NCBI GenBank assembly: GCA_036244855.1 | Contig: BQKZ01000127.1 | Coordinates: 159,235 to 223,234, forward strand | Length of the DNA: 64,000 nucleotides | Reading direction: 5' to 3' | Origin: Temnopleurus reevesii | Lineage: Eukaryota > Echinodermata > Echinoidea > Temnopleuroida > Temnopleuridae | In this document: piece by piece, positions 10,654 to 61,050 of the stretch | How positions within the stretch are numbered: the stretch's first letter is position 1 | Layout: each line of letters starts with the position of its first letter | The notes under the pieces: generated by a model | Seen by the model: the letters and a program-made list of their open reading frames with translations, nothing else | What the model was told of the DNA's origin: nothing | The model's database searches: none | Made by a program: the position numbers and the translations under genes

Positions 10654-10803
10654 GGCTGTTAAACCTTCGGAGAGATATGATAGGATTATGAATAGGCCTA
10701 CTGCAATGCGAACGCCATAAACGTGTTTTGTTTCAGAAACATAATCATGAATGATAATGGTATTGACACACGGAATACACAATGGAATTTCTTCGCAGAT
10801 GTT

Positions 10804-36818: not shown

Positions 36819-37089
36819 GAGGCGCCGTAGTGCAGTGGTTCTGACTCTCGCCTTTCAACCAGAGGGTCATAGGTTCGAGTCCAACCTATGGCATCAATTT
36901 CCTTCAGCAAGAAATTCATCCATATTGTGCTGCACTCGACCCAGGTGAGGTAAATGCGAACGGCAGGAAGAAATTCCTTGTTATGCGGAGCGCCGTAATG
37001 GCTGCCAGCTAGAGCCGGGTAAGTGAGTGTAAAGCTTTCAGCGCCATGAGCACCGATAAGGTGGACCTGTGCGTTATACAAGTAGCCAC

Positions 37090-37126
<37 letters not shown>
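36819..37126 (+). mobile_element. tRNA-headed SINE next to the SPRY-TIR stop codon
   Basis: Head ggaggcgccgtagtgcagtgg with B box ggttcgagtcc, body 'ttccttcagcaagaaattcatcc', tail module 'gagcaccgataaggtgga..gtgcgttatacaag' and (ATT)13 ending 15 bp before the stop codon of the minus-strand gene. It is antisense to that gene and probably lies in its 3' UTR. Confidence 0.88.
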
Positions 37127-37141
37127 CCTGATTTTTTTTCT

Positions 37142-37408
37142 TCAAAGTAAAGTGCAGGTCTTGGACTGATTGATACGTCCTCCCTGGCTGGTGTGAGGCC
37201 TCCGCGGCTCGTCATAGTTCTTCTTTGGCTCCTTGAGGGAGGTGAAGGAGAACGACCTCCCTCCTCCACTAGCTCCATGGTCTCCTCTTCCGCCCGGCTC
37301 CTGGAAGTCGTCGCTCCCTATCGACTGGAGGTTGCTGCGGTCCGCCTCCGCCATGGCTTTCTTGAGGGCGTTGGGGTCACTGGCCTGGTTGGTAGTCTTG
37401 TTTCCTTT
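37142..37408 (-). CDS. SPRY-TIR gene, exon 18 (stop)
   Basis: Acceptor cttatcAG; phase 0. Encodes 88 residues of low-complexity tail (KGNKTTNQASDPN, a Gly-rich GRGDHGASGGGR, then ...CTLL) and TGA at 37144-37142. Probably disordered. Confidence 0.8.
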   Translation of the reverse strand, partial: KGNKTTNQASDPNALKKAMAEADRSNLQSIGSDDFQEPGGRGDHGASGGGRSFSFTSLKEPKKNYDEPRRPHTSQGGRINQSKTCTLL

Positions 37409-40400
37409 CTGATAAGGTAGAGAATAGATAAGAGAATAGATGAGAGATTCTGAATAGACATTGTCCCCCGTCTGTGGATCAGTGCTCAACAGACAGAGAG
37501 AGGGAGTAAAATTCCAAACAATGTCATTAGGTTTAGGAAAGTCCTCAGGAGAGGAAGAAAGCTAGCCGCAAAATCGAAGGGTTGGTAAATGCTTTGAACT
37601 TGATTCTAATAAAAGAAAGTATGTTTATTTATCGGTTGTAATTTCATAAGTACGAGAACCAAATTGAATAAAAGGAGAAAGACATTAAAGAAGAGCATGC
37701 ATTTTACCCCTATGTAGTGACTTCTGAAAAGGATATGGAAAAACAACACAATTTACAGAATAGAGTGTTTTTAAATTTGAGGCTGGATAAATTGAATTTA
37801 TTGAATTGAATATGGTTTATCTGAAGGAAGACGTGAAATAAGTAAACACTACATACAAACTAGTTGTAAAAAAAAATGGGTTGCAACTTAAATAGCGCCC
37901 ACATTTGTTCTGGAAGGTGGAACACAAGTGCATAACCGATCTGCGCAATACGTAACAGTATTTGTCGTCTATCCCCACTCAATATCTCTTGTCCACAGGC
38001 CTCTGTCCATCAAATTCAAGACTAACTAAATAATGTATATAAACTATAGTATTGTTTCCTCACCTGGGCATCTGAATAGAACATCTTTGCTCCCTTTCCT
38101 TCGGAAACTCTTATTTCTTTTCCGTTGTAGCCTTTGTCTTTCAGATTCAACGTCTTGTCTTCAATCTGTTCAATTGCCCAGTCAAAATCTCCACTCGTCT
38201 CTGCAGTAAAATAAGACAAACAAACATTGTTCATAATAATGATCAGTTCTGGCTGTTCTGTTCTGTATGTAGACTGCTAGACTTTTCGTTAAAAGATTAA
38301 AGGGGAATTACACCCAGACATTAATGTACGGTCAGTAAATGAAGAAAAATCAGATGAACAAACTGTGAAAATTTGAGCAAAATCGGATAATCCGTTGAAA
38401 AGTTATGAATTTTCAAAGTTATCATTTCCACCTGTGCTGGTCATCCTTGAATTGGCAACGTATAGTCAATTAGCATAATCTGTGATGTCATACATGGAGA
38501 ACCCCTCATGCACTTTGTATATAAATTTATTGAAAATGGATCAGTATCATATTTCAAATGAGGAATTAGCACCATTCTTTCTGGAATGCTTTCAGAATTG
38601 ATGTGGCTCTAATATACTTAACCGAAAAAACAAAATTTTGTCTACTTTTCTGGAAAAAGAGGAAAATGTGAAACTTTGTGTACAAAGTGAATGGAGAGTT
38701 CTCTATGTTGGCAGCCATTTTGTGCCTGTACGTTTGCCAATTTAAGGAGCCCATGAGGGGTGTAAATCAAAACTTAAAAAATTCATAACTTTTGAATGGA
38801 TTGCCAGATTTTGCTCAAATTTTCACAGATTGACCATTGTATTTTTCTTCATACACTGAGTGCAAATCAATGTCAGGGTGAAGTTCCCCTTTAATGAAGA
38901 CTTATAAAAGATATTTTGTCAAGCCCTGGGCAGCTTTTTGTGGCCCTCAAGAACTTCATTTTTGCTTGTTAGCCATGTTCCTATTTACACATCCTAATCC
39001 ATGCTTTATTTAAAGGGGAACTTCACCCAGACATTGATGTGCGCTCAGTGGATGAAGAAAAATACAATGGTCAATCTGTGAAAATTTGAGCGAAATCCGA
39101 CAATCCATTCAAAAGTTATGAATTTTCAATGTTTCGATTTACACCCCTCATGGGCTCCTCAAATTGGCAATGTACAGGCACAAAATGGCTGCCAACATGG
39201 AGAACTCTCCATTCACTTTGTACACAGAATTTCACATTTTCTTCTTTTTCTAAAAAAGTAGACAAATTTTCACTTTTCTCTTCAAGTATGATGTGGACAT
39301 TTTGAGTCTGCATGCATTTCGGAAGGATTTTTTTAAAATTTATTATCTACTTTTCTAGAAAAAGAGAAAAATGTGAAATTCTGTGTACAAAGTGAATGGA
39401 GAGTTCTCCATGTTGGCAGCCATTTTGTGTCTGTACGTTGCCAATTTAAGGAGCCCATGAGGTATTTGAATCAAAATTGTGAAAATTCATAACTTTTGAA
39501 TGGATCGTTGGATTTTGCTCAAATTTTCACAGTTTGATCAATGTATTTTACTTCATCCACTGAGAGTGCATCAATGTCTGGGTGAAGTTCCCCTTTAATA
39601 TCAAAACTATAATAAACAGAGATGGTAACAATATGGCTTGACTGTCGCAACAATCTTTGATAACATGTAACATACAAAGTAACTCACCAATCTTATGCAT
39701 GACAAGCTTCTGCCACTCGTTCTGAAGCGCGCCCTCTGGAGGCCACTTGACCGACTCCAGGATGAACGGCAGGACCGGTTTGGACCTCTTCTGGGCATAG
39801 TCCAGGACCAGGCCCATCTGTTTGGTCTCGCTAATCTCTGGACCCATGCAGCAGACCACGGCGGTGCATGACGAGACGTGGTTATCAATCAGACTGTCGA
39901 TGTTGGAGCTGTTTAGCTTGTCTTCAGGAAGGAGGTGCGTCATGAAACCTTTTTTGTCTAGTCTATTTTTGTTCCAAGAAGTAGAAAGAGAAGAAATTGA
40001 TCAGTTATAGATAGTTATAAGACCAACAACAACAACAACTGGAGAAACATCAGAATTATGTTAGGTTGTATTTATGACGTATAAAACATGTTATGGGTAA
40101 ACAGGGGAATACTATTAATAAAGTGACTCAATACCGTTGAATAACCAAAATATGATTTGGTGAAAATTGTATCTTAATTAGAAATTATATTCAATCTCTC
40201 ATATTCAAAATGAACTAAATAATTTTGCTTTTTACAAATAATGGAAAGATACATATTCACATTCATTTATTTTCTTCAAATGAGATATAATTACATAATT
40301 TTTTTTAATGTACTTCTCATTTTCAATATCATCATCACCACCATCATCATCATCACCACCATCATCATCATCACCACCATCATCATCTTCATCATCGTTA

Positions 40401-40570
40401 TTAACATCATCATCATACAAGTAGCTTTGTTGTATCTCTCTGGATCGCAGTGGATTTATAGTGTGTAACACTTGTTGAGATGATTGTCAGTTCGTTTACA
40501 TCATCATCTTCACCACCATCATCACCACATTACCACCGTCGTCATTGCCGTCGTCATCATTATTACCATC

Positions 40571-40602
<32 letters not shown>

Positions 40603-40645
40603 CATCATCATCAGCATCATCATCATCACCACCACCACCACCACT

Positions 40646-40703
<58 letters not shown>

Positions 40704-43700
40704 CCATCATCCCCATATCATACCTTGCTTGTATATGAGTAGCTTCGTTGTATCTCTGCGGATCACAGTGGATGTATACAGTGTGTTTGTTGAGATGATT
40801 GTCTGTTCGTTTGGATGCAGAGGCTGGTCTAGCACGTCGGTCAGCGGCTGTTTCCTTGTACTGACCTAGAATTAAAGACAAAATATGTTCAATTACTTCG
40901 TAACAGAGTAATAATTTCATTGGAATATCTGTTTAAAAACTATATTTACAATAGGAACCAAATTTAGGATAGGCTCATCAAATTGCTAGAGAGTATCAAT
41001 ATGACTCACAATATTGTGGGATTAATTAGCAATTTGAATCCGAGGCAGTGTTTCACCGAGATAAGAAAGACTTTAGGAATGACTGGTATGCGTTCTTGGG
41101 CGTAATGATTCATAATGTTACGCGTATTCAGCACAAGAATTGATACCTGACCTTCTCAAAGTGTTTGTAACTTGGTGAAAGACCGCACTGATTGCTCTTA
41201 CATAGAGTTGAATTATAATAATTTTTTACTTAACTTCCCCCCCACCCATTCACTTCAATTGACATGTACTATATATGCTGGTTCCCATTATAAAAATGCC
41301 CTCTCATCATTAATGGCCATAGATAGAGGATTTGAAAAATGTAATACAAGTAAAAGAAAATGCCTCTCATTTGCCATGATTTGGTTCCTGTACTTCTAGG
41401 TATATGGAAATAGCAGATTGAGAATTGAGAAAAGGAATGCTTTCAATGATCAAAGCAGTCATACTACATACAACATATTCGGAAGGACGCCGATTGAATT
41501 ATATTCTTAATTCTTCAACATACAATGGATTAGTGAAAATAACAGATCTGAAAATGAAAAGGGTGGGAAACCTAAGAAAAGCAAAAAAAAAAAAAGAAAA
41601 AAAAAGTGAACATCCACCACGCTTTCTTTACATGGTATTCTAAATTTCCAATCTTTATTCAATTAATGTTAGTAAGAATTTAACACCATAATGTAAGTGA
41701 TGTACTATCTAATTGTTAGAAAGTCAAATGACAGGACTGGCTTCTACAATCTATGTGCTCGGTTAATTCTTCACCATTTGTCAAGTTATACTTAAGTTTC
41801 GAAATGGTAATATTTTCAAGGCATTGCCTTGTATTGAAACCCCCAATTGGAAGGGATATATGCACCTTTAGTATCTTAAAATATAGGGATGGGGGCATAA
41901 CGGTTGCTTAAAGACAACTCAACTGGAGTGCAAGTCTAAATACCCTTCCAATTAATTCACTAAACTAAAATGCGTTAACACAACAGGGTTGTTCCATTCA
42001 TATTTTTTGTTGACTCCTTTCCCAGAATTAAAAAAAAAATCCTGCAATTCTTCCTTTAATTGTCAAATTCGAAAAATCGTCCTGAACATTACACATTCAT
42101 TTTTTCGTCTAGCAAAGCAAAGCTTGGGAATACTATAAAGGACATACAAAAAAGTTAATTGCTTTGTGGAATGCTGTATCCTGGTGTCGGATAATCTATC
42201 GTCTATGACAGTAACCGACATCCTTCAATTACAAAGGAATCTAAATGAATTAAAAAAAAAAACGGTGGAAGGAAAAGAAAAAAGACCATCTTAAATTGAT
42301 TCAGGTCCATGACATAAAATTAGAAATACAATGGAACACTCCATTTTGGTTTTGAAAGCCCATTGATTATGCAGAGCTCAATCGTATCATTTGGCCTTTC
42401 TTTTGTAGGTTGAAACGTACCTCGGCGGAACTTTCTTTTTGAGGGCAAGATTGGGCGCATGAGGTAGGGAAGATATAGCACAAATTCTGTGAAAGTAAAA
42501 CAGAATAAGAGCACATATTTGGTATTTTATAACCTCAAAGTATCATACAGAGCTTAAAGTTTTCAAGCAAGAAGATATTTGGCAGCAAATGAATAAAAGA
42601 TTGAATGCTTTATTGCTCACATAGTGAAATCATGTTATATCCCGATTATTATTGTTGGTTTCACAAGTAAAAGAGTTATAAAGATTTACAAAAGTTTGAA
42701 TGTGTCATTTCATAATATATGATTATAATGTAAGCCAGTGCTGATTTAAAAGCAAAAGAGCCCAACTTCGTTAGGAAATTCACTCACATAACTAGATTTC
42801 CTTTTTGTTGTTTAATATATCTTATAGCAAGGTTTCAATATAAAGAGGAAACTTTGCTGATCCCAAGACCACATTATATGGAGGTTTAACTGTATAAAGG
42901 AGCATTAAAATGGAATGTTTTATCGAATTTTACAGAGATAAATAGTCTTTGGGTAAGAATTCTTTTATCTTCTAAAAAAAGTATCTCAAACCTCATAAAT
43001 AGGCAAGACTTCTGTGTTAGAAAAGTGTATGAAAAGGGGATAGTGCATGCAAAATCATAGAAACATTCAATGACATGAAAATGTGATGACTAAAATATCC
43101 TACAGTGCATGCTGACCCAGTTTCACTCCATAACAATTCATTTCGTTTTGTTATCTTCAAAACAAAATTGTAAAGTAGAATCACGTTCTCAACTAATGGC
43201 TAGATAAAACAAGGCAGGGAAAGGCAGGAAAGTTCACGAATGAAGTGGAACTTGACTGTACACTTACAGTCTTCCACAGCAATTGATATAAATAGTAAAT
43301 AAATGAATAAATAAATTTACTTTAATCAATCAATCAAACAATCATTAAATGAATTAATAAACAAATACAAAACTAACAAGGGCCAATAATTAGTAAGCAC
43401 ATACATGTATGCAGTGTCCCCCCTAAAAAAAACATATTTACATGCACACTGGCCATATTCAGGGTATTACCCATATTTCCAAAGAGTATTTTCTTAACTA
43501 CACGAAGAAGCTTTTTTTCATGAAACTCAGTCCGGCAGGTTGAAAGTTAAAACTCTTTTTGTGGAGCAATGGCAAGTTAATTTTATTGCATGATTTGTGT
43601 TTGCCAGTACTGAAAACGCAAAACCTGCTAACCTAAACTTAGACTCCAAACTTTCCTGCTCATTTTATGGTTCCAAGGGGGATTACGAAAATAAAAAGAA

Positions 43701-46700
43701 ATCAGTAAATAATTACAAAAAGAACAACATTATTAAATGCGCCTGTCTCTTAGGGAGGATTTCCTTTATCCATTGGCATTAATCTTGTGTGATTCTGACA
43801 AAAAAGGTATTAAGATTTTTTTTTTGCTGCAATGCAAAACAGCATATCATAAACACTATGAATTCCAATGCATTATTCTTTTTTTCATTGATGCTATCCA
43901 TTAACAAAAGAGTGTGTTCAGAGACAGGTGGATGTGTAATGGTGTTATTGTATTCTGAAGTACTACAGGTGTCAAAAGATGTTGGTACCCCCTAATGATG
44001 GGTAAAAGGAGAAGAGTCTGATTTGGGGTTGGCAGGTATGCACTCCGAATCTCGCATTGCTGGCATTGCTCCGAAAAAATAAAGAGTCCTAACTTTTGAC
44101 TGGCTGGGCAGGTTATGATGAAATAAAACTCATTTGTCCAGGTTGCAGTTTTGACACTCTGTATATACAGTAGTTTTGGGTGAATTGGAATGAGGCTGTA
44201 GATTTTTCACTTCCGATGTACAGCTATGGGGGATGGGGTCTTATCCATCAGCTCCAGAAAGGGCAGAAGATGATGCCTATCAAACTAAGAGGGTGTTGTT
44301 TAAAATCAACTGCAACTTTGCAAATTGCAATGCGCATTTTCATTTGCACACAGTATGCGCATCTAATAAGTCACACATGAGACAATGATTTTAATTGGCA
44401 CGTTCCGATCAACTGCAACTTGCAATCAATTTTTTGAACAAAACCCCCATAGTGTTGAAGGCATTTGTGTCTTTTATTGTGCATTGTAGCATTGTTATGA
44501 CGTTTCAATGAATGTGCAGAAGAAAGGACCAAATTTTTTTTAATCTGACACTGCAAGCCTTGTTCTTGAAAGCAATGACAGCTAATTTGAAATTAATAGA
44601 TGCTTTCCACCTATCTGTACTATTGTTACTTGATACATAATATATATTGTTGCTAAATGTAAAATAAGATTTGCAAGTCATTGCTATCGTAGTAAATATG
44701 AAATCAAATCTATCTTAATTTTGTATCGCCTCCATCACAATACTAGAGAAACGAGAACCTCGATTTGAACCATGCTATGGAATTTCCTTCAGCAAGAAAT
44801 TCAACTGCACTGTGCATCACTCAACCCAGTTGAGGTGAATAGGTACTTAAAGTTACCCAGCAAGAATTTAAGCTGGGTAATAGTGAGAAGCCAAAATATA
44901 CACGAGGTTAGAATTAATGCACTAGCTGAACAAAGTATGAGAAAACATAGCAAAAGCCTCATTTTCAGCCATTTACTTGTGATGAAAGCCTTGAAGTCAT
45001 ATTAAAATATACCTCATGCATATTTCCAAATTTTGGGCACTTTCAGAAATAACACGGCAATTGCAGAGAAAATTGCTGGAAATGTTGCAGGGAATTCGAA
45101 GGGTATAAAAGGGACTTCTATCAAAATGTAATAGGTGCTTTTGTAAAAGCCAATATATTAGCATGCACAAATTTTAGGGAATTCCCTGAATTTCAGACAT
45201 ATTTACACATTAGCGGGTCGTTATTTTCACATTTTTGTATGATAATTGTACACAAGTCTATGGGCACCAAATTGAGTGGGGACTTTCGCAAATTCACAGT
45301 CGCAAAATAAACGAAAATAAAACCCCATTGAAAATTTCAGCTTATAGAGTATATAAGAATAAGAATAAGGATTATAAACGCCTACCTGCAGCTTTTCGTT
45401 TCTGGTCGACCTCCAGCCTGAACGCGTCGGCTTCTTCATACCACTTCAACTTATCTGGAAGTCTAGGCACCGACCCTTTAATGAACATCGAAACTTCTTC
45501 ACCTGCGTGCCAAGAACGAAATAAAGATCATTGAATTCACTTTGCAAGACTCAGATTTCAGAAAAAATATAACATAGAAATAGAAGAGTCAATTTGGAAT
45601 GCCTAATTAAAGTGGTATTACATACATTAATTCTATTCAGTTGCTTTATTTTCACTTGAAAAGGGGTATTAAAAACTTTGGGGTTTGATTTTATTCAGAA
45701 CGTGAAAGTGCCATCATGTATCCACCTTCCTTTCCAAACACAATAGATTACTACATGAAATCATTAGTTATGGGTTGTAAGACAACCAGGGTACCATTTT
45801 CGTCTCATCAACACCCAAAATTCAACAGAATTCCATGACTTTTAACAAATTGTCTGAATTCCCTGACTTTTCCTTGATTTTCCATGAACACAAATTTTTT
45901 CAGGATTTTCCGTGAGTGTAAGAACCCTGATCTTTAGACATAAGTATCCCCTTATGAAGCAAAAGAAGATTATTCAAAATACACAAGAAGTTTTTGGTTA
46001 GCAAGATGCCTAACCACTGCAACTCACCATATCTGTAAAGCGTTATCACGGGAAAGAACCCGCCACCGGGTTGCTCCATAGGCTTGTGAAACATAACGTT
46101 CCCATTTATCGCGCAATACACGATCACGACTTGTCTCGTTAGATTGGGGATGTTATTACACGAGGGGAAGATTATTCCCCATCCGATTCGGTCCCCCTTC
46201 TCAATATATCCATCCAAAGATTTCACTGATGAGAAATTGAGAAAAAATGATATAAAGTATAGGAGTAAAAGAATAATTAAGGGAATTTCTTACTTGCACA
46301 TGACAATCACAAAAAATGGAATATTTATAGAAAAATCATAATAATGACAATATGGTTTTTTTCACTGTTTATGTACCTAAATGGTATCTGAGGTAAAAAA
46401 AATATATGATTTGTATATCACTTACATACAAAAAAATTAATCTAGAATAACTTTATCTGACATGATACTAATTAACAGTTAAAGTCAGGACGGCGTGTTG
46501 CGTATTGGCAACAACGGTATTTGAAAATTTCCTTGCTTACGCACCTTGTCAATCTCAGAAACTCAGAACACTTTGTACAAATTTCCGATCCATGTTGTTG
46601 ATGCGTGTAATTTTTATTCCTCCCTTCTTTGGGTTCGATTTTTCTAAAAACGTGCCAAACGCATACGCACGCGATTGCCGAGCTGTGGGCTAGCAAAATA

Positions 46701-52700: not shown

Positions 52701-55700
52701 GTGTATAAATTTGAATCCCTTACAGTAGTAAATGTTCCTACTTGGGCAAGTGGGTAGATGACTTTTCTCGTTTGACATAAACTTACCATCAAAATCTCCA
52801 AGTCCTGGGAAGTCGAGTGCTCTCTTGGCTTTAGCNCTCCCATGAGATTTTATCAATTTCTTATATATTCAATATTACATTTCATTTCTCTAGGATAGCC
52901 CATCAGTATTCAAGTACTGTTTTTTATATCAATTGGACCAGCTGTTTGGCTATTCAGATTTTAATTTCTAACCTACAATGATGAATATTTTAGTTGGTTG
53001 GCATCTTTATGTTCCTTGAGATTGGTTTCATCTCAAACCACTTAAAAGTGGATGAGCGCCTTTATGTCAATGAAACTACTAATAATGTCTGAGGACATAG
53101 AATAGTATGCAAGTACAAACTCCTGGGGTGGTATTCTGGTAGGTGTCTTATCTCAAAATATTATCTTATCTTTAAATTGCTATTCTGGAAGCACGGTATT
53201 CTGGTAGGTGTCTTATCTCAAAATATTATCTTATCTTTAAATTGCTATTCTGGATGCTGTCTTATCTCGGTGTCCTAACTTTTGTCTTATTTTTTTGGCT
53301 TATCTCCTCTGCGCGTCATAAAAATGCAGCACGCAACGTATTGTGCGCAAGAGAGATAAGATAAATTGGTAAGTGTCTTATCTTTTGTCTTATCTTATGT
53401 AACATATTAGTTCGCATAGAGATTTAGGACACCTCCTAGCTGTCGTATCTCCGCCATGACGGCAATTTTTCTTGCATTAAACGTAATTAGGAAATAGGTC
53501 ACGTTTAGAAACGGTTGTCTGATCATGAAATACTATTACAGACTTTCAAAAAGTTGTTGTGCTTTATTTTTTAATGAATTTTGTTTACCTGCAACTTGAT
53601 GCAACAGGTTGAATTTGTTTCACATGTGCTCAAAACAAACACGTGATAATTAGGACAATTAATTTACTAGCGCGCAGTACGCAAAGTGTTTCAGCGTATT
53701 GAAACTGTGTTGCGCAGGGGCATCAGCTAAGCTTTTTATTGGTCAATGAGTTTCGGAGGGGAATGGAACATTGATTTCGATTGGTTATTTGAGATAAGAT
53801 AGGCGGGTCCTCAGAGAGATAAGACAGAGAAAAGTGAGTTTTCAGAATATCGATTTAAGACTGTCTTAGCACTGTCTTATCTTATGGAGATAAGACAAAA
53901 GATAAGACAGCTACCAGAATACCGCCCCTGGCTTTGGTTTTCTCCAATATGCATAAATACACAATCAAGGGTCTGCTTTTATCATGAATCCCTCTGCCAA
54001 GGAAGAAGCAATGCAGAAGCAATGCATTCTGCATGGTGGTCTACATCATGCACTGCACATGCATACACCAAACACCAATGGTCAGTGCCTGCAGACGAGA
54101 CATAGAACTACTTTAATACTGCCCCCCCCCCTTAAGGAAAAACGCAATAGAAGCATTTATGTCAATTTTTATTTTATTGAATAAACGTAGTCAGCAGAAA
54201 AACTTTTTTTTTTTTTACATATGGCTCATTCCGTTTACTGTAAAAAAAAAAAATCAAAAAAACCCTCTATGCAAATCTTATGCATATTTTCAGAGAAATA
54301 TTGCTCTTGACAACCAGAGGGCTTTCTCGACATAGCAACACAGCTACAACTATTGTATTCAAACTAGGTTCCTTGCATTGAGGTTAATTTGATGATAACG
54401 GATTTCAGGAATTCTATGTAACTATGCATTTTTGGCAAGGAATGTGTATAAATTTGAATCACTAACAGTAGTAAACAGGCCTACTTGGGCCTGCAGGTAG
54501 AGAAGTTTTTCTCGTCTGACATAAACTCACCATCAAAATCTCCAAGTCCTGGGAAGTCGAGTGCTCTCTTGGCTTTAGACAACCAATTTGCTTTGTCTGG
54601 AAGCTCGGGTGCGGAAGCAGTCATGTTCAGCCTCACACATGATCCTAAAAATACAACAAAAAAGGAAGGTTTTAATGATGATCAATCCCCGAATATGAAG
54701 AGTACCTAAAAAGGCAATGTTAAGTTTGGGAACCAATCAAAGCAACATCTATCAACCATGACTTTCCCTTCATTACTTTCCTCAATTTTTATTACCTTTC
54801 TAATAGCTAGAATATGATTCAAATACATTGCAATAAATTGACTTATTTATTAAAACTAGTGGAGTTTAGGTTTAGCAAGTCTTGTTTAATGATACTCGTA
54901 AATCAATCTCTAACCCAAATTAATTGCGACCCAGGTGCAACACCGCACTTCAGGCTTTTTTTCCAAAGTTTCTTCCATGGAATAATTTTTAACTATGAAT
55001 TCAAGTGTGTTTGGAATTTGAATTATACAATTTTTATAAAAACTCAAGAGGATTGCTTTAGGTTTAAATAAATGTTTTCTCTGGATAAATGTGTATTCTA
55101 ATTCAAGATACTGAAATTAAAAATGTCAGAACAAAAAGCTTTTAACATTAATTTGATTACTTTTAACATTAATTTGATTACTGATGAGGCTACCCTGTAT
55201 AAATAATACGTAATAAACAAACAAATAAATAAAGAAAGAAAAAAAGAAATAAATAAAGAAATAAAGAAATAAAAATAATATACTTAGGGAGATTTCAAAA
55301 ATGTAATCTCAACTTACCTTTCGATACAAATGCACAGGTTGGATAAAAGCCCCCTGTAGATTGTGTGACATTGCAATGGTGAAGAACTGTCTGGTTTCTT
55401 GTGAAGTAAGCTACAACCATCTGTGTGTCTGTTATAGATTTATCTGCTTCAAAGTGTAATATACCGCAACCAATGACGTCTCCAGTTTTGCACTTGCCAG
55501 CGTCTCCTAGGTTCTTTCCTGTGGGGAAAATACAAATTATTTAAAGTTGTTGTTCTCTTTGAGATTTAGATTTAAATTTGGAAGTACCCCAGAAACTTTC
55601 ACTACTTCTAAGATAAATTCAATGACAATAAAAAGCCTGATATAGAACTGGAAATTTCACCCCAAAGTTTAAGCTTGTTTTATTTTAATTGCAGTACCAA

Positions 55701-58700
55701 TTTCACAACCATAATAAATTAACAACATTAAAAATCACCGACTCCTAAAAGTTAATCCTGAAAAAATGTTACCTTCCCTCAATAGAAAATACATATTCCC
55801 AACACATAACACTCATTTTGGGGGGTACTCATTATCAAATTAAACAACAAATCAAACATACTCATTCTCAAATCAAACACCTAAATGTAGCAGCCACAAA
55901 GAATTTTTTTAAAATGATTATTTGATCATTTCTTGACTACATCTTTTCTTGCTACACATGGCAAATTTTCAGTGTACAGCTTACTATTCAAATCTTAAAT
56001 GACCTTTTTTTAAAAACTTTATCACATACTCTAAGACCTCTTGTAAATTACATTCCTCCTTGTTTACAAATCTGTGCCAAGAAATTAACTATAGAATTTC
56101 ATGTACATTTCACACCTCCTGTAACCTACAAGCTTGCTATTGTTCCAAATCTATTTTAAGATTCAGCCTGTGTAAGTTTCACATAGTACAAGTGTCAATT
56201 TCACTGAAGCATGTCCTGTGTAATCTACAACCTGTCAATCAAATGCACCTGTTTGCTTCAAGTGGATATAATGACCTACTTCATATATAAATATCTTGCC
56301 TCAAAATCATCATCTTGAAAAGTTCATTCGCAAAATCAAATAAATGACATTCTTTTAATCCACGTACTGTCACTTTATAAAGAACAAAACTAAAACTTTT
56401 TTATGTATAATGATGTATTCTACACTGCATATACATAATTTGTATTTTTGTATAGTGATCCTTAGATTATAGCGAAGAATTTCCCCCTTCATTTTACTGC
56501 TCTTGTACATATCTCGATTTGACTAACATGGAAATATTTTTTTTCTTTTCTTCAAATGATCCTATCATTTTCCCACAAATCCAAAAAATTAGTGTTTAGG
56601 GGATTCAGGAAGCTTATATATAAAATCATTGGGAACCTTACTGTGCATTTCACCAAAAATAATTGTCTATCAAAAACTCAATTACTTATACTAATTATTC
56701 TGTTCCACACGTAGTATTTCTTAACTCTTTCACTCTGTAATTTCAGTTTCCAAATTTCCTTATATCTGTACAGAATAGAATGCAGGGAATTGGGGGAAAA
56801 TATGGAATACATAGGGAAAGCATTGTAAGTTGCGTTCAAAAGCATACAAAAGTATGAATATTTTTTATCCTTGAGACTTCCTCTATAAAAATATGTATAA
56901 TTTGGCCATGTCACAGACAATATAACATGTGACATGTGACGTCACATATATCCTTGGGTATTTACAGTGACGTCAGCAAGCCGGTTTCACTGGCTATCCG
57001 TACAATACATACTATTTCTCTCACGTCGCTTACAACGGCCCGCCGTAGCGAAAGAGTTAATGTAACTTAAATGTAAGAGGGGGCATGCGTTTCACAAGCC
57101 TCTCTTTTTCTGCATGCTTCTCCATTTCTCTAACTTAATGAGCTTTTCTTTTTAGATGTTATGCATTATTGATTTATGTGTAACCGATAATATGTAAATA
57201 TTATCATTTCTGTTGCAAAATCATTATAATTTCTTGTTCAAATTGTGAAAATGCTATTGAAATGGAAAAACAGATATATAAATAAAAAAAAATCAAATCA
57301 AATTTACCTTTAGAAGTTTGTCCACTGTTGGTTATCTTCCCTTTCGCCGTGTCATAAGCTACGGAAAACTCGGCTTTCCCCGGCAGACCTTCATCCGGCG
57401 ACCAGGTAGCGGAGGTTAGACAGATCATTGGACTTTTCGGTTCGTTTTCTTCCGATGATTGCGATTCGCCGAGTGATTCCAGGCTCATCTCAAAGTACAT
57501 GCAAGAATCTGAAATTTCGAGGAAAAATTTGATGCAGCTTGCTTAAAATCAGTATATAGTTTTGTTAAAGATTGAACATTCCTACTTAGAAGGGTTGTTT
57601 ACAATGCATAAAAAGCTTACAAACTTAGGCTTTCACACAACATCAAGAGAAAGAGAATAAAAAAATTCCAGAATTCCAATTTCCAAAATCAATGATCATT
57701 TTTTTTTAAATACTAAATAAATCATCTCTGGTACCATACCCTTCTGTAAAAACTAATGAAATTAACCTTATCTCTCTCTCTCTCTCTTTCTGTTTCTCTC
57801 TGTTTCTCCCTGTTAATCTCTCTATCTCTCTCTGTTTCTCTCTCTATATCTCTTTTAATATCAATATTACATCATATTAGGTTGTAATATACATGCAAGT
57901 ATTTACCTTGCTGGAATCCACATGGAGACTGTGCGCATGCTTTCTTTTCATTCGTTGCACTCAGCGAATCTCCCTCAATTTTTATATTATCAGATGAAAT
58001 CCATTGACTGAGATTCGTCTGCCGAGAAAGAAAATAATCATTACAGGAAAATCTGCATAAGCTCACTTGAGAGCAACAAAATCTGTTTTAAAAGAATAAA
58101 TAGAATAGGAGGCGCCGTGGTGTAGTGGTCGTGACTCTCGCCTTTCAAGTAGAGGGTCGTAGGTTCGAATCCTACCCATGGCGTCAATTTCCTTCAGCAA
58201 GAAATTCATCCACATTGTGCTGCACTCAACCCAGGTGAGGTGAATGGGTACCTGGCAGGAATATTTATTCTTTGAAATGCCAAGTGCGCCGTGAATGGCT
58301 GCCGGGCTAAAGCCAGGGTAATAATAATGTAAAGCGCCTTGAGCACTCAGCAGAGTGGATACGTGCGCTATATAAATTGCATCTATTATTATTATTATTA
58401 TTAATTCATTGGTAAGTTTTCTTGTTTTATGGCATTCTAAAATACTTTAAAGATAAGTTTCAATGTGACCTTTGAAGTAAGGTATATTTCATGCTTAAAT
58501 TTAATACATTTATTGTGTAACAAAGGAAATGGCAATATCAATAGGAACACGCAGCTATTCTTCATCAGCAAGTAAAATCTCTAATCATTTGCCACATTGG
58601 GCAGGAGAATAAAGCAATTTCGTGGAGTTGGTTTGATTGTTCAAAACATCAAAAAGCTTGAATGTGAAACTAACATCTTGACTCAAATATCTTACCATTG

Positions 58701-61050
58701 ATAACGGAGGAACAGACGAACTCAGCCAATCGACTTCAAGCTCTGCCGGGCCCCACCAGGCGTTGATAGTCGGGAAGAGGTCTTTATCCTGAATCGTGAC
58801 CCACCTTCGATACTGAATCGTCTCATTCTTCCACACACAAACCAAGGACTTATGAGCACTGAGTTGTTCTATTACACACGTTATCACATCCCCTGGAAAT
58901 AGGAAAAAGTAGATGATTTATGATTAGGCCCCCAAAAAAAATTTTTTTAATTCCCTCTGCCAACCAACCTTCTGAAAATGACCCAGTCTGACCTACGGTA
59001 TTATTTTTTGGGGGGAGGACCTTCTGATATTGTTGATTTATGATTATGATGATGATGATGATGATGGTATTGATGACATATGATGACTAAGATGAAGATG
59101 ATGATTATAGTTAATACGTAACATGCCATGAACATCTTTCATATACGATAAAACCAATAGCTTTACAAACCAGTTTACTAACACAAGACAGTTTTGTAAA
59201 AATGTCACAGTAAATATATCAACAATAAAAGTGAAAAAGTATAAGAGTTATTATTAATTTGAACAGAATGTCAATGTACTTGTTTAAATGTCAGGGTTCA
59301 TTTGTGTTAATGTAGCAGTCACATATTTGTATGCTAGTTTGTAATGCAGGACAGGAATTATTCCACAACGAATTCAATCACTATTCCTTTCATAAAATGG
59401 CAACACTATAATTTCAAAACCTCTTTTTAGAACATTCCCATGGAATACAATGTTACTTGATTGCCCAAAAGTTTGTTAAAAAGTTCAAAGTTGCCAATTT
59501 GGATGGAAAACAGTGATTTAATAACGTTTACTGTGTAGCAATTTTAAGGATTTATTAAAATCTTAGTGATTTATTTTCATTGAAAACAGCAAATGTTGGG
59601 ACCATCATAATGGTCATGTTTTACCGGCGCTATGAATGAGTCCTTGTAAATAAAAAAAACAGTATTTTTTACCCTACTGCCGGAGGAGATTTATCCACCT
59701 TTTTCCATACAAAACTATCTCATATTCTAATAAAAGATACTCACCTTCACCAAAGGCTGAACAATTATTCTTTGAGTCTCGTGATGGCGATGACATGACC
59801 CCATCGTCACTATGATACATTAGGGCATCTCGCAACTTGTGTTCCGATTCCTGCTCTTTCTCGTCATTCTCTATTTCTTGAACGATTGGACTGGCACTTA
59901 TTCCAACTCCAACGACTGCACCTTCGCCTTGAAAAATAAAAAACAAGGATATAATAGTATGTAAAGCTTTACAAGAAAATGTAATAATACAACAATTTGG
60001 AGCTGCCACATGTTATTCCTGGGGCGAACAAGAACTCGAAAAAGATTTAAAAACATGATGTTCCGAGTAGAATTAACTAACTAACCTGTGGACGGGTTAC
60101 TCAATTCTACTCGAAACGTTGTGTTTTTTTTCATCTTTTTCGAGCTCTTGCTCAGTCCTTTCCAGGACTATTTCTTGAAAGATAACCCTACACCACATGG
60201 TGCAAGTGCAAATCTTTTTTTTAATGTTTACTTCACCATGCAAGCTCTAGTGTTCTTCAGTTATCTTTTTAATTTGCTGTATAAATTTTGATCACACTTT
60301 TGATCTGCTGATCACACTGTATACTCTAGGGCTAGCAACATAAAGATATATAATTAATTTTGCAATAAATCATATCTCTTTGGTGCACAATTTGCCATAG
60401 ACTTGTGATAAATATCTATAACAAGTTTAATTGCATCTATTATGTTACAGACCCCTGAGGCCAATTACACTAAATGGTCTTAGCTATCCTCTTCTTGCAA
60501 AGACGTTCTAACTTCTTGTGCCATCCTCTTAACACAGACATCAGGGAATAATTTTCCTTTGCACATTTGATTAGCAGTTTTAGACATTGAGGAAACCTTT
60601 TCAAAACCCTACTGTACAGTTCTATGTGAAAAAGTTGCTAAACAAAACATCTTTTGAATAGCAATCATGCATAAAATGCATAGCAAATTGCGATGCTAAA
60701 CCAGGAAAATTATTCCCTGGACATATCCACGTGTGTGTCTGTGTTAAGACGGTGGCAAAAGAAGCTAAAACGTCTTAGCAGGAAGAGGATAGCTAAGTTC
60801 ATTTCAAGCAATTGGCCCCAGATATCTTAACTTCAAATAAGCAAGGATTTTCACGGCTGGAACAATCTTTTTAACTTACCCAATTGCACAATTTTAACCC
60901 TGAATGCTGGATGACTGTTGTTGAGCGGTCCCTCATTGTGCTGAGCATAGACTACATGGTCCAATCCTTCCAGAAGATCTCTAATGCTGACAATTGCTCC
61001 ATCTTCTCTCAATTGGACCGAGTTGCTGTGTTTAATGGGGCCCATAATTC
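37142..61050 (-). CDS. Multi-SPRY protein with C-terminal TIR-like domain, 18 exons, 5' incomplete
   Basis: Eighteen exons, listed separately, join without a frame break into at least 1066 residues. All 17 introns are GT/AG and phases agree throughout. Order: SPRY A1 (about residues 1-184), B1 (185-393), A2 (394-580), B2 (581-794), TIR-like (about 820-935), charged tail to 1066. SPRY marks include YFEVEV, PTIGLTN, GYIEKGDRIGWGIIF, VVIVYCAINGN and GGGFFPV in B2. TIR marks are TVYIHCD, CTAVVCC, DYAQKRSKPVLPFIL and WPPEG. No signal peptide or membrane segment was seen, so a cytoplasmic protein is likely. SPRY domains bind partners in TRIM and some NLR immune proteins, while TIR domains signal or cleave NAD. 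A role in innate immunity is inference. The first exon enters in phase 1, so more exons lie upstream, possibly beyond the window. Confidence 0.85.
38064..38200 (-). CDS. SPRY-TIR gene, exon 17
   Basis: Acceptor ctgcAG, donor GTGAGG. Encodes ETSGDFDWAIEQIEDKTLN and a KGYNGKEIRV segment, charged, downstream of the TIR fold; no known domain recognised. Confidence 0.82.
38297..38894. mobile_element. TTAA-flanked palindromic MITE
   Basis: TTAA at 38297-38300 and 38891-38894. Ends AGGGGAATTACACCC / GGTGAAGTTCCCCT are inverted; inner arms contain 'aaaagttatgaattttcaaa' and its inverse. Within intron 16. Confidence 0.85.
39010..39598. mobile_element. TTAA-flanked palindromic MITE
   Basis: TTAA at 39010-39013 and 39595-39598, ends AGGGGAACTTCACCC and GGTGAAGTTCCCCT exactly inverted over 14 bases. 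Sister to the element 120 bp away. Same intron. Confidence 0.88.
39688..39962 (-). CDS. SPRY-TIR gene, exon 16 (TIR core)
   Basis: Acceptor aaatAG, donor GTGAGT. Enters in phase 2 (AG+A gives Arg), leaves in phase 1. Encodes RLDKKGFMTHLLPEDK, an SSNIDSLI helix, CTAVVCCMG strand, DYAQKRSKPVLPFIL and VKWPPEGALQNEW. The last part matches the WPP-type end of animal TIR_2 domains. At the place of the catalytic Glu of NAD-cleaving TIRs there is Val (MGLVLDYA). Confidence 0.85.
40327..40398. repeat. ATC/ACC microsatellite
   Basis: Repeating catcatcaccac units in intron 15. Confidence 0.95.
40497..40715. repeat. Long ATC microsatellite next to a splice donor
   Basis: About 210 bp of (CAT/CAC)n. Its edge is under 20 bases from the exon 15 donor. 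Frames across it are low-complexity artefacts. Confidence 0.95.
40724..40865 (-). CDS. SPRY-TIR gene, exon 15 (TIR start)
   Basis: Acceptor attctAG, donor GTATGA. Phase 1 in, phase 2 out. Encodes a linker rich in Arg and Ala, then the first TIR strand KHTVYIHCDPQRYNEATHIQ, equivalent to the FISYS strand and following helix. Confidence 0.84.
41043..41190. mobile_element. MITE, family M2, in intron 14
   Basis: Ends gtgtttcaccgag / cttggtgaaagaccgcac; inner 'gaattgatacctga' matches other M2 copies. Confidence 0.6.
41191..44288. other. Intron 14 interior, no coding segment
   Basis: AT-rich with A-runs and short 'aataaat'/'caatcaat' repeats (43300-43370). Small ORFs lack splice sites and resemblance to any protein. 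Confidence 0.5.
44289..44449. mobile_element. MITE, family M3
   Basis: agagggtgttgtttaaaatcaactgcaac ... ttttttgaacaaaaccccc, inverted ends; intron 14. Confidence 0.7.
44755..44850 (+). mobile_element. SINE fragment
   Basis: B-box remnant 'cgatttgaaccatgc', then 'ttccttcagcaagaaattcaac' and 'caacccagttgaggtgaatagg'. Head and tail are missing. Confidence 0.65.
45386..45502 (-). CDS. SPRY-TIR gene, exon 14 (SPRY B2, last)
   Basis: Acceptor acgcAG, donor GTAGGC. Encodes EEVSMFIKGSVPRLPDKLKW and a Glu/Arg-rich helix. Its PRLPDKLKWYEEA matches PELPDKANWLSKA of exon 7, supporting duplication. Confidence 0.86.
46028..46225 (-). CDS. SPRY-TIR gene, exon 13 (SPRY B2 core)
   Basis: Acceptor ctcatcAG, donor GTGAGT. 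Encodes LDGYIEKGDRIGWGIIF, VVIVYCAINGNVMFH and GGGFFPVITLYRY, the strongest SPRY signature in the gene. Confidence 0.9.
46485..46925 (-). repeat. Dispersed repeat M7, second copy
   Basis: Reverse-complement relative of 15010-15435, in intron 12. Its end contains 'gttcatgatcgac', matching 'gtcgatcatgacgg' at the far edge of the other copy. Confidence 0.6.
46953..47156 (-). CDS. SPRY-TIR gene, exon 12 (SPRY B2)
   Basis: Acceptor cattcAG, donor GTAAGT. Encodes WSYFEVEVNSKNFS, DKAPTIGLTNFMRP and the YYCRTNTVGYMDY strand. Phase 1 at both ends. Confidence 0.88.
47290..47402 (-). pseudogene. Decayed copy of the exon 12 5' border
   Basis: Copies the acceptor region and first half of exon 12 at about 85% identity. 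It reads SYFEVKVNSKNFSTATHF and then hits an in-frame TGA where the real exon has GGA. No donor follows, so it is not an exon. Confidence 0.8.
47500..47642 (-). pseudogene. Decayed copy of the exon 11 3' border
   Basis: Copies the latter part of exon 11 and its donor region. The frame is open (LKSPGIVINGNKIICEDKSQ..) but the donor is GCAAGT instead of GTAAGT and the acceptor is gone. A rare GC-AG use is possible but unlikely without an acceptor. Confidence 0.78.
47720..47843 (-). CDS. SPRY-TIR gene, exon 11 (SPRY B2 start)
   Basis: Acceptor tttacAG, donor GTAAGT. Enters in phase 0 and encodes DNLDVWLKSPGIVVNGDKIT through SPQPMSQ. Opening matches exon 4 (TNLSQWISSDNIKIEGD). Confidence 0.86.
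47912..48092. mobile_element. MITE, family M3
   Basis: Ends ttaggggttgttgctcaaaa / ttttgagcaacaacccctta are inverted over 20 bases; TTA-like flanks. Intron 10. Confidence 0.8.
48206..48381. mobile_element. MITE, family M2
   Basis: ccagggcggtgttccaccaa / ttggttaaacaccccccagg. Inner 'gcatgacaggtatcagttcttg' matches the inverse at 28600. Intron 10. Confidence 0.7.
48433..48540. mobile_element. Partial M3 MITE
   Basis: 'tttcaatttgcagacgatttgcagttaattc' and 'acaactttctagcaataccccct' match the right half of 48563-48749; left half missing. Confidence 0.55.
48563..48749. mobile_element. MITE, family M3
   Basis: Starts aaaggggtcttgccagaaa, ends ctttctagcaacatcccctt; inner inverse pair 'gttgatcggcacgtgcc' / 'ggcacgtttcaatttgc'. 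Intron 10. Confidence 0.65.
48909..48982 (+). mobile_element. SINE tail fragment
   Basis: 'gtacaaagcgccatataaatgg' followed by ttattattattat, the tail module only. Confidence 0.65.
49010..49560 (-). repeat. Tandem copies of the exon 10 border
   Basis: Four further copies of the last part of exon 10 (SSRPG.PE.NTYSK), donor and about 80 bp of intron, with period about 135 bp. The copies near 49280 and 49425 keep a GT donor; the copies near 49030 and 49165 have lost it. They lie inside intron 10, directly next to the real exon. Confidence 0.85.
49570..49778 (-). CDS. SPRY-TIR gene, exon 10 (SPRY A2 end)
   Basis: Acceptor cctacAG, donor GTTAGT. Encodes DEVAVYVQFLDLSKVVQFFK, NGRLMGQC and IFPSLGFRGQPATVTVTW. 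Leaves in phase 0. Parallels exon 3. Confidence 0.88.
50108..50260 (-). CDS. SPRY-TIR gene, exon 9 (SPRY A2 core)
   Basis: Acceptor atttAG, donor GTCAGT. Encodes DEKSMVCVGISRGGQSCGSI, DSAGYSSNGHILMGMDG and FEKG. Parallels exon 2 (VVGVGISAS...YHSDDG). Confidence 0.86.
50325..50772 (-). repeat. Tandem partial copies of exon 9
   Basis: Three copies of the acceptor region and the first two thirds of exon 9, at about 50325-50440, 50474-50600 and 50634-50772, with growing divergence. Each stops near the codons for GHILMG and lacks the donor. They sit upstream of exon 9 in intron 8. Confidence 0.85.
51115..51409 (+). mobile_element. tRNA-headed SINE
   Basis: Near-complete: head ggaggcgcagttgtatagtgg, B box ggttcaaatcc, body, 'aaagcgccttgagcactcag', 'gtgcgctatataaattgc' and an ATT tail. 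Antisense in intron 8. Confidence 0.88.
51488..51685 (-). CDS. SPRY-TIR gene, exon 8 (SPRY A2 start)
   Basis: Acceptor tctatAG, donor GTAAGA. Encodes a polar lead, FSEPIGCPTSD, SKLDDGKLLQLL and PYFTIKIEEL. Parallels exon 1 (AFRVKIVQL). Confidence 0.85.
51840..52835. repeat. Left copy of a duplicated block, empty haplotype
   Basis: Matches 52837-54574 apart from an 800-bp insertion in the latter. It ends at the N inside a partial copy of exon 7 (52787-52835, with its own GTAAGT donor). Confidence 0.88.
52836..52836. other. Single-N assembly junction
   Basis: Separates the two copies within intron 7. Confidence 0.9.
52837..54574. repeat. Right copy of the duplicated block, filled haplotype
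   Basis: Counterpart of 51840-52835, carrying the MITE at 53127-53926 and running into the complete exon 7. Confidence 0.88.
53127..53926. mobile_element. 800-bp TIR element with CCTGG target duplication
   Basis: Ends GGTGGTATTCTGGTAG and CTACCAGAATACCGCC are inverted repeats. CCTGG directly precedes (53122-53126) and follows (53927-53931). The empty site in the left copy reads cttgg once (near 52170). Many 'gtcttatct' motifs lie near both ends. No transposase. Confidence 0.85.
54531..54644 (-). CDS. SPRY-TIR gene, exon 7 (SPRY B1, last)
   Basis: Acceptor tttttAG, donor GTGAGT. Encodes SCVRLNMTASAPELPDKANW and ..ALDFPGLGDFDG. A partial duplicate exists at 52787-52835 on the other haplotype block. 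Confidence 0.85.
55318..55518 (-). CDS. SPRY-TIR gene, exon 6 (SPRY B1 core)
   Basis: Acceptor cccacAG, donor GTAAGT. Encodes CKTGDVIGCGILHFE, MVVAYFTRNQ and STGGFYPTCAFV, parallel to exon 13. Confidence 0.9.
55519..57307. other. Intron 5, no feature recognised
   Basis: AT-rich with no coding segment or clear repeat. A small CG-containing stretch lies at 56935-57060. Confidence 0.5.
57308..57508 (-). CDS. SPRY-TIR gene, exon 5 (SPRY B1)
   Basis: Acceptor atttcAG, donor GTAAAT. Encodes DSCMYFEMSLESLGES, a polar Glu/Ser stretch and ATWSPDEGLPGKAEFSVAYD. Parallel to exon 12. Confidence 0.88.
57771..57852. repeat. CT microsatellite
   Basis: tctctctctctct with tgtttctc interruptions; intron 4. 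Confidence 0.95.
57907..58018 (-). CDS. SPRY-TIR gene, exon 4 (SPRY B1 start)
   Basis: Acceptor tcggcAG, donor GTAAAT. Enters in phase 0; encodes TNLSQWISSDNIKIEGD through CGFQQ. Confidence 0.85.
58108..58403 (+). mobile_element. Full-length tRNA-headed SINE (reference copy)
   Basis: Head ggaggcgccgtggtgtagtgg, perfect B box ggttcgaatcc, 'ccttcagcaagaaattcatcc', 'gaggtgaatgggtacctggc', 'aaagcgccttgagcactcag', 'gtgcgctatataaattgc' and an ATT tail. Antisense in intron 3. Best copy for defining the family. Confidence 0.92.
58696..58892 (-). CDS. SPRY-TIR gene, exon 3 (SPRY A1 end)
   Basis: Acceptor atttccAG, donor GTAAGA. Encodes DVITCVIEQLSAHKSLVCVW, DLFPTINAWWGPAELEVDW and SSVPPLSM; phase 0 at its end, like exon 10. 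Confidence 0.87.
59042..59070. repeat. GAT microsatellite
   Basis: gatgatgatgatgatgatgg in intron 2. Confidence 0.9.
59745..59927 (-). CDS. SPRY-TIR gene, exon 2 (SPRY A1 core)
   Basis: Acceptor tttcaAG, donor GTGAGT. Encodes GEGAVVGVGISASPIVQEIE, an acidic loop, ALMYHSDDGVMSSP and AFGEG. Confidence 0.85.
60024..60155. repeat. Inverted repeat with actcgaaacg motif
   Basis: 'gaacaagaactcgaaaaagatt' faces 'catctttttcgagctcttgctc', and 'gagtagaatt' faces 'aattctactc'. About 130 bp, in intron 1. Confidence 0.75.
60455..60822. mobile_element. MITE, family M5
   Basis: Ends cctgaggccaattacactaaatgg / caattggccccag, inner 'gtcttagctatcctcttc' faces 'gaagaggatagctaag'. Longer than the 29569 copy by a central segment. 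Intron 1. Confidence 0.75.
60880..61050 (-). CDS. SPRY-TIR gene, first visible exon (SPRY A1 start)
   Basis: Acceptor aatgcAG, donor GTAAGT. Encodes (G)IMGPIKHSNSVQLREDG, LLEGLDHVVYAQHN and AFRVKIVQLG. The ATG could be a start, but phase-1 entry, as in exon 8, favours an internal exon. Confidence 0.78.

Follow-up and report, generated by a model that had tools for sequence, protein, structure and literature searches.

The window analyzed here, the whole 64,000-nucleotide stretch of DNA from the sea urchin Temnopleurus reevesii, contains on its minus strand an 18-exon gene encoding a protein in which four SPRY-type domains precede a TIR-like domain and the tail ends in a CaaL motif. The protein is conserved in the echinoderms sampled and a hemichordate and its gene is apparently single-copy; we propose, with a probability of roughly one half, that it is a membrane-tethered signaling adaptor or scaffold. 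The sequences of this family are already public and uncharacterized; the novelty lies in the architecture and in how we interpret it, rather than in finding the gene.

Gene model, relatives and copy number

The 18 minus-strand coding exons (61050-37142), spliced by script, give a single open frame of 1,065 codons from the ATG at 61045 to the stop codon at 37142. Each of the 18 acceptors is AG and each of the 17 donors GT, which bears out the proposal of an earlier note on this DNA that 18 exons with correct borders and phases join into one open protein (1,065 aa). As the ATG lies five bases past an acceptor, a 5′ UTR exon is probably present upstream of E1. Intron 14, of ~4.5 kb, separates the SPRY half from the TIR half and harbors an additional 66-nt exon. 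The exons are as follows:

60880..61050, minus strand: E1, 5′ part of SPRY1; the start Met (61045) is aligned in the relatives
59745..59927, minus strand: E2, SPRY1
58696..58892, minus strand: E3, end of SPRY1
57907..58018, minus strand: E4, start of SPRY2
57308..57508, minus strand: E5, SPRY2
55318..55518, minus strand: E6, SPRY2
54531..54644, minus strand: E7, end of SPRY2 and of unit A
51488..51685, minus strand: E8, start of SPRY3 and of unit B
50108..50260, minus strand: E9, SPRY3
49570..49778, minus strand: E10, end of SPRY3
47720..47843, minus strand: E11, start of SPRY4
46953..47156, minus strand: E12, SPRY4
46028..46225, minus strand: E13, SPRY4
45386..45502, minus strand: E14, end of SPRY4 and of unit B
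42421..42486, minus strand: 66-nt in-frame exon lying between E14 and E15, most likely a cassette
40724..40865, minus strand: E15, linker and first TIR strand
39688..39962, minus strand: E16, TIR-like core, with V892 in the column of the SARM1 catalytic Glu
38064..38200, minus strand: E17, end of the TIR-like domain and conserved post-TIR segment
37142..37408, minus strand: E18, variable tail, CaaX box CTLL (codons 37145-37156) and stop codon

Likely SINE copies with a tRNA-like part lie in two introns (58110-58446 and 51117-51408) and just past the stop codon (36820-37109); within the first of them, positions 58114-58183 match the Rfam tRNA family with 30.4 bits. Pieces related to this element also occur at 44781-44846 and in a direct repeat with tRNA-Ala genes elsewhere in the window. 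The two copies of this repeat (1 to ~2700 and 7687 to ~10400) are offset by 7,686 bases; their first 2,500 bases show 99.6-100% identity, and the similarity ends within the next 500. Altogether, the first 15 kb of the window hold 11 tRNA-Ala(AGC) genes, between which a 588-aa open frame on the plus strand (10751-12517) looks, by eye, like the reverse transcriptase of a non-LTR retrotransposon.

A protein search with residues 400-960 revealed eight entries among 5,038 candidates at E ≤ 0.001. These entries come from seven echinoderm species (Strongylocentrotus purpuratus twice), are all annotated as “uncharacterized” with lengths of 1,048-1,111 aa, and cover 99-100% of the query colinearly at 44-73% identity. 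End-to-end alignment showed that the order of the parts and the tail are common to all, with 25 additional N-terminal residues in the Lytechinus pictus model. Compared to S. purpuratus isoform X2, the alignment is gap-free within 6 columns of 16 of the 17 exon junctions, the exception being E10/E11 with a 2-residue insertion nearby. A search with the family consensus of the TIR and post-TIR segments gave nine matches among 885 candidates at E ≤ 0.01, namely the eight echinoderm entries and LOC102805911 (687 aa) of the acorn worm Saccoglossus kowalevskii. The latter model starts inside the equivalent of SPRY2 and continues through SPRY3, SPRY4, the TIR and the tail, indicating that it is probably truncated; it is identical to the Patiria protein at 246 of 675 aligned positions (36%) over its SPRY and TIR parts. 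The same SPRY-TIR order, which the earlier note had suggested seeking in other deuterostomes, is thus present in seven other echinoderm species and, as a shorter model, in Saccoglossus, and in view of these colinear proteins a gene-fusion artefact was rejected.

A family-profile search of the protein collection yielded nine matches among 6,168 candidates, five of which are family entries and four multi-SPRY proteins; as it missed three known relatives, its misses prove little. The four multi-SPRY proteins are large and carry no TIR_2 label, and two of them are labeled with a kinase domain.

In a tree of nine rows, from which the second S. purpuratus isoform was omitted and in which Saccoglossus sits on a long branch, the window protein and the three other sea urchins form one group (100/100), within which it is the sister of Strongylocentrotus and Lytechinus (100/99). 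Among urchins, the identity is 81% for the TIR-like domain, 85% for the post-TIR segment and 63-72% for the SPRY domains, and between urchins and other echinoderms the corresponding values are 51%, 65% and 36-45%. The TIR/post-TIR end is therefore the most conserved part of the protein, above the SPRY domains, among which SPRY3 is the most conserved in urchins (72%).

Searching the 558-Mb assembly with the protein gave 24 places, of which 23 belong to the SPRY-TIR locus (five extra copies besides the 18 exons) and the remaining one is a match with stops at E = 0.0049. Given an assembly fragmented into 10,433 contigs and a coarse exon-wise search, we grade the gene as apparently single-copy. 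An expanded receptor family was also considered, and no paralogue appeared in this genome search. Pfam TIR (PF01582), by contrast, was found at 25 places of the genome at E ≤ 0.01, of which 11 sit in open frames 885-950 aa long and two contain internal stops; this animal is thus rich in TIR genes. The large innate-immune repertoire presumed in the earlier note is supported for the animal as regards TIR genes, but is less supported for the SPRY-TIR protein as one of its members, which comes from an apparently single and conserved locus.

The duplicated SPRY half and its intronic exon copies

The whole window protein matches Pfam SPRY (PF00622) with E = 1.2e-9 and 38.8 bits against a cut-off of 26.3, and three stretches are found at E up to 1. 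Seven of the eight relatives also match at E up to 0.1, the exception being one S. purpuratus entry. Scored as single pieces from the window and from Patiria, SPRY1 (0.0086 and 1.8e-4, respectively) and SPRY2 (8.3e-5 and 9.1e-5) match in both; SPRY3 matches in Patiria (1.4e-8, the only one of all these pieces above the cut-off) but not in the window, and SPRY4 has no match in either. The assignment of SPRY4 rests on its homology to SPRY2 (profile E = 3.3e-28) and to human SPRYD3 (PDB 2yyo, 4.2e-5 with a six-row SPRY4 profile). Pfam places the whole protein above the SPRY cut-off, whereas the count of four, as given in the earlier note, is not reproduced by Pfam for the SPRY3 piece of the window or for SPRY4. 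Comparison of the family profile against solved structures showed that SPRY2 resembles human SPRYD3 (1.6e-16) and SPRY3 resembles RanBP9/RanBP10 (E of about 1e-6). SPRYD3 is the top PDB match for the whole protein, the family profile and the SPRY4 profile.

Residues 1-391 and 392-792 align with each other as two copies over 327 columns (profile E = 7e-38). Corresponding SPRY domains of the two halves match accordingly (SPRY1-SPRY3, 2.8e-15; SPRY2-SPRY4, as above), with further matches between SPRY2 and SPRY3 (4.3e-12) and between SPRY1 and SPRY2 (3.4e-5); profile comparison gave no match for SPRY1-SPRY4 or SPRY3-SPRY4, nor for SPRY1 or SPRY2 against the TIR part. Moreover, both units consist of seven exons of similar lengths with identical end phases (1,1,0,1,1,1,1). 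Judging from these alignments and phases, the four SPRY domains are the product of an intragenic tandem duplication of a seven-exon, two-SPRY unit, which predates the split of the sampled echinoderm classes.

In addition, the introns hold partial copies of six exons, which are newer than the unit duplication:

52787..52834, minus strand: 48-nt copy of the E7 3′ part, 100% identical
50343..50753, minus strand: three copies of E9, partial or decayed: 50753-50636 (contains a stop), 50574-50476 and 50414-50343
49043..49454, minus strand: four partial copies of the E10 3′ end, 29-63 nt
47525..47631, minus strand: copy of E11, open over 35 aa, 74% identical, lacking the first 17 nt, with GC at the position of the donor GT
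47298..47388, minus strand: copy of E12, with an in-frame stop
40420..40497, minus strand: decayed copy of E15, with an internal stop

E9 and the E10 3′ end (119-bp period) have been partly duplicated several times in introns adjoining the working exons (49043-50753), with SPRY3 as the domain beside these copies. Mutually exclusive splicing was considered and rejected, as the copies of E12, E15 and one E9 copy contain stops and those of E10 and E7 are short pieces. Two of the three E9 copies and the E11 copy have no stop in the matched part. Since the E11 copy lacks its first 17 nt and has GC in place of the donor GT, we read the copies as decayed; rare use of the E11 or E9 copies is possible, with 47525-47631 as a possible alternative exon.

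The TIR-like domain, the candidate cassette exon and the C-terminal tail

At E up to 1, a Pfam scan of the window protein returned only SPRY, TIR_2 (PF13676) and a weak GST_N_4. TIR_2 reaches 24.3 bits (4.8e-5) in the whole window protein, which is under the cut-off of 28, and 28.3 bits (2.7e-6) in the TIR piece alone; the whole S. purpuratus protein scores 23.3 bits, also under the cut-off. At E up to 0.1, TIR_2 is matched by all nine TIR modules (best 9.3e-7) and by all eight full-length relatives, and by none of ten shuffled modules at E up to 1, for which the best chance match to any family is 0.0065. The precomputed TIR_2 label is present in only two of the nine family entries (L. pictus and Saccoglossus).

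Other searches gave little further support. PDB search with the TIR profile found no match at E up to 10, no TIR family was among the NCBIfam matches for the nine modules, and PADLOC reported a TIR-like match in one of the nine (E = 0.005). GST_N_4 matches weakly in two of nine (best 0.0024), and alignment to SARM1 by hhalign has 37% probability over 42 columns around “KPVLP...WPP”. PF01582 is not among the Pfam matches of the window protein at E up to 1, and the genome-wide search with it at E ≤ 0.01 does not list the SPRY-TIR locus. Given the near-threshold TIR_2 scores and the little support from PDB, NCBIfam and PADLOC, we term the domain TIR-like, and consider it quite probable that it is a TIR domain. 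Of the two Pfam families that the earlier note had named for it, TIR_2 is found near threshold in every module, and PF01582 is listed neither for the window protein nor for the locus.

The alpha-C column of the SARM1 catalytic Glu is occupied by Val in seven and Thr in one of the eight echinoderm rows (V892 in the window), whereas Saccoglossus keeps the Glu. The Trp four positions before this Glu is absent from all nine rows. An excerpt of PMC7075850 puts this Glu at >90% in those TIR groups for which NADase activity has been reported, describes it as rare in TIRAP and MyD88, and cautions that activity is not always mirrored by its frequency. As the echinoderm rows lack the catalytic Glu, their TIR-like domain is predicted to be non-enzymatic.

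Directly before the TIR-like domain, the 66-nt exon at 42486-42421, which is absent from the exon list of the earlier note, has GT-AG borders and encodes hydrophobic and then basic residues; its inclusion keeps the frame open, giving an ORF of 1,087 aa. S. purpuratus X1, L. pictus and Diadema setosum have the corresponding segment in their models, and it is missing from S. purpuratus X2 and the four sea-star/brittle-star models. This pattern suggests that 42486-42421 is most likely an alternative cassette exon. While its splice sites and isoforms are seen in the genome and in database models, its effect would be to alter the linker between the binding and signaling halves, and contacts with the membrane or with partners could change as a result.

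In all nine species the C-terminus reads S-K-x-C-x-x-L, right beside a variable stretch (residues 1004-1055) with 18% identity between urchins and other echinoderms. Internal tetrads fitting C-[VILTSA]-[VIL]-L are rare in these proteins (1 of 8,119). The motif, which the earlier note missed, is a CaaX box at the extreme C-terminus with X = L (CTLL in the window). A Cys four residues from the end, Ile/Leu next to last and a final Leu are the signature of geranylgeranylation by GGTase-I, and the tail is predicted to be geranylgeranylated. The cytoplasmic molecule envisaged in the earlier note is accordingly less likely to be free in the cytoplasm.

Proposed role, alternatives and comparison with known systems

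The domain order, the duplication, the loss of the Glu and the invariant CaaL, combined with several putative steps, lead us to the adaptor or scaffold reading. Geranylgeranylation would place the protein on the inner face of a membrane, where the SPRY array may bind one or more protein ligands. The TIR-like domain, lacking the catalytic Glu in the alignment, would then serve as a non-enzymatic docking and assembly surface for other TIR proteins or adaptors, much as the membrane-targeted Toll adaptors do. The apparent single copy and the high conservation of the TIR end fit a TIR scaffold of this kind, anchored in the membrane and without enzyme activity, better than they fit a diversifying receptor. 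In line with this, conserved animal TIR proteins (SARM1, MyD88 and Mal) do not sense pathogen molecules directly, as stated in an excerpt of PMC9153377. A more far-reaching version, which we consider speculative and rather unlikely, is that the prenyl-anchored four-SPRY array controls the TIR, which changed from an ancestral enzyme (the Glu being kept in the acorn worm) to a pure scaffold in echinoderms, and that the protein acts in membrane-based innate-immune or stress signaling independent of Toll receptors.

The main rival, itself unlikely, is a function in ubiquitin ligation, with the SPRY array bringing substrates to an E3 of the MYCBP2 type and the TIR-like domain only making a protein contact or targeting the membrane. 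It draws on SPRYD3, which among solved structures is closest to SPRY2 and SPRY4 (1.6e-16 and 4.2e-5) and is a two-SPRY protein that recruits MYCBP2 via its second SPRY and promotes USP11 ubiquitination (excerpt of PMC12664034). That the closest solved SPRY relative works in ubiquitin ligation rather than TIR signaling also speaks against an adaptor. However, the SPRY fold is a generic binding module, SPRY3 finds its best match in RanBP9/10 instead, and the most conserved part is the TIR/post-TIR end, of which the excerpt on SPRYD3 (PMC12664034) makes no mention.

It is fairly improbable that the protein is a pathogen sensor, with SPRY domains that directly bind ligands from microbes or viruses, like those of TRIM5 or fish NLR-B30.2 proteins, and with a signaling TIR. 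SPRY domains do recognize viral molecules in TRIM proteins (excerpt of PMC8195603), the genome is rich in TIR genes, and the partial or decayed copies of E9-E12, including the E11 copy and two E9 copies that have no stop in the matched part, point to local exon turnover around SPRY3 and SPRY4. Yet there is a single locus, conserved from sea urchins to the acorn worm, and SPRY3 beside the exon copies is the very SPRY most conserved among urchins (72%). Far less probable is a SARM1-like NADase regulated by the SPRY domains: a TIR_2-type domain and the Glu of Saccoglossus would suit it, but all eight echinoderm rows have Val or Thr in that column and none of the nine has the Trp at -4. Finally, the length of intron 14 (~4.5 kb) between the halves could suggest a SPRY gene and a neighboring TIR gene wrongly joined, a reading largely refuted by the same junction in the models of seven other echinoderm species and Saccoglossus and by the occurrence of the cassette segment, encoded within this intron, in three sea-urchin models.

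SPRY and TIR both belong to the main modules of innate immunity in animals, which is why the membrane-tethered adaptor or scaffold would be of interest. It would be extended, by a conserved protein of the SPRY-TIR-CaaX type, with a membrane-tethered branch open to testing in embryos of sea urchins. The Glu/Val split that separates the hemichordate from the echinoderms provides a natural test of a TIR turning from enzyme to scaffold. SPRY domains are described as coupled to RING, HECT, NACHT or death-fold domains (excerpt of PMC8195603), and a 2008 survey reports about six TIR combinations in sea urchin (excerpt of PMC2575513); the word SPRY is absent from the latter paper. In the open-access literature, with most subscription journals outside its scope, no SPRY-TIR architecture was described among the matches listed (titles and starts of abstracts), and no paper was found for SPRY-TIR phrases or the S. 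purpuratus locus LOC577229. The suggestion of the earlier note that the architecture is undescribed agrees with this search.

Among known systems, human SPRYD3 (PDB 2yyo) matches SPRY2 and SPRY4 best of all solved structures and has two SPRY domains like each duplicated unit here, with no TIR, duplication or CaaX box mentioned in the excerpt of PMC12664034; the sequence comparison covers the solved structure. RanBP9 and RanBP10 resemble SPRY3 by profile match (E of about 1e-6). TRIM and fish NLR-B30.2 proteins likewise couple SPRY to an immune-type output domain, but the present protein has no RING, B-box or NACHT match in Pfam at E up to 1 and its gene is apparently single-copy. SARM1 is a conserved low-copy TIR protein with a weak local match over 42 columns, and differs in that SAM and ARM are not among the Pfam matches here, the Glu is absent from the eight echinoderm rows and the Trp from all nine. 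The invertebrate ecTIR-DC proteins are conserved TIR proteins also proposed as adaptors or regulators (excerpt of PMC6321704); the word SPRY is absent from that paper. Regarding RanBP9/10 again, the LisH and CTLH parts are not among the Pfam matches of the window protein. These parts are carried by RanBP9 and RanBP10. Among the Toll adaptors, TIRAP and TRAM are membrane-targeted, as is predicted here. Compared to MyD88, TIRAP (Mal) and TRAM, four SPRY domains here replace the death domain or the short targeting segment, and the predicted anchor, a CaaL at the C-terminus, takes the place of a PIP2-binding or myristoyl signal. Similar to the echinoderm TIR-like domain, the TIR domains of MyD88 and TIRAP usually lack the catalytic Glu (excerpt of PMC7075850).
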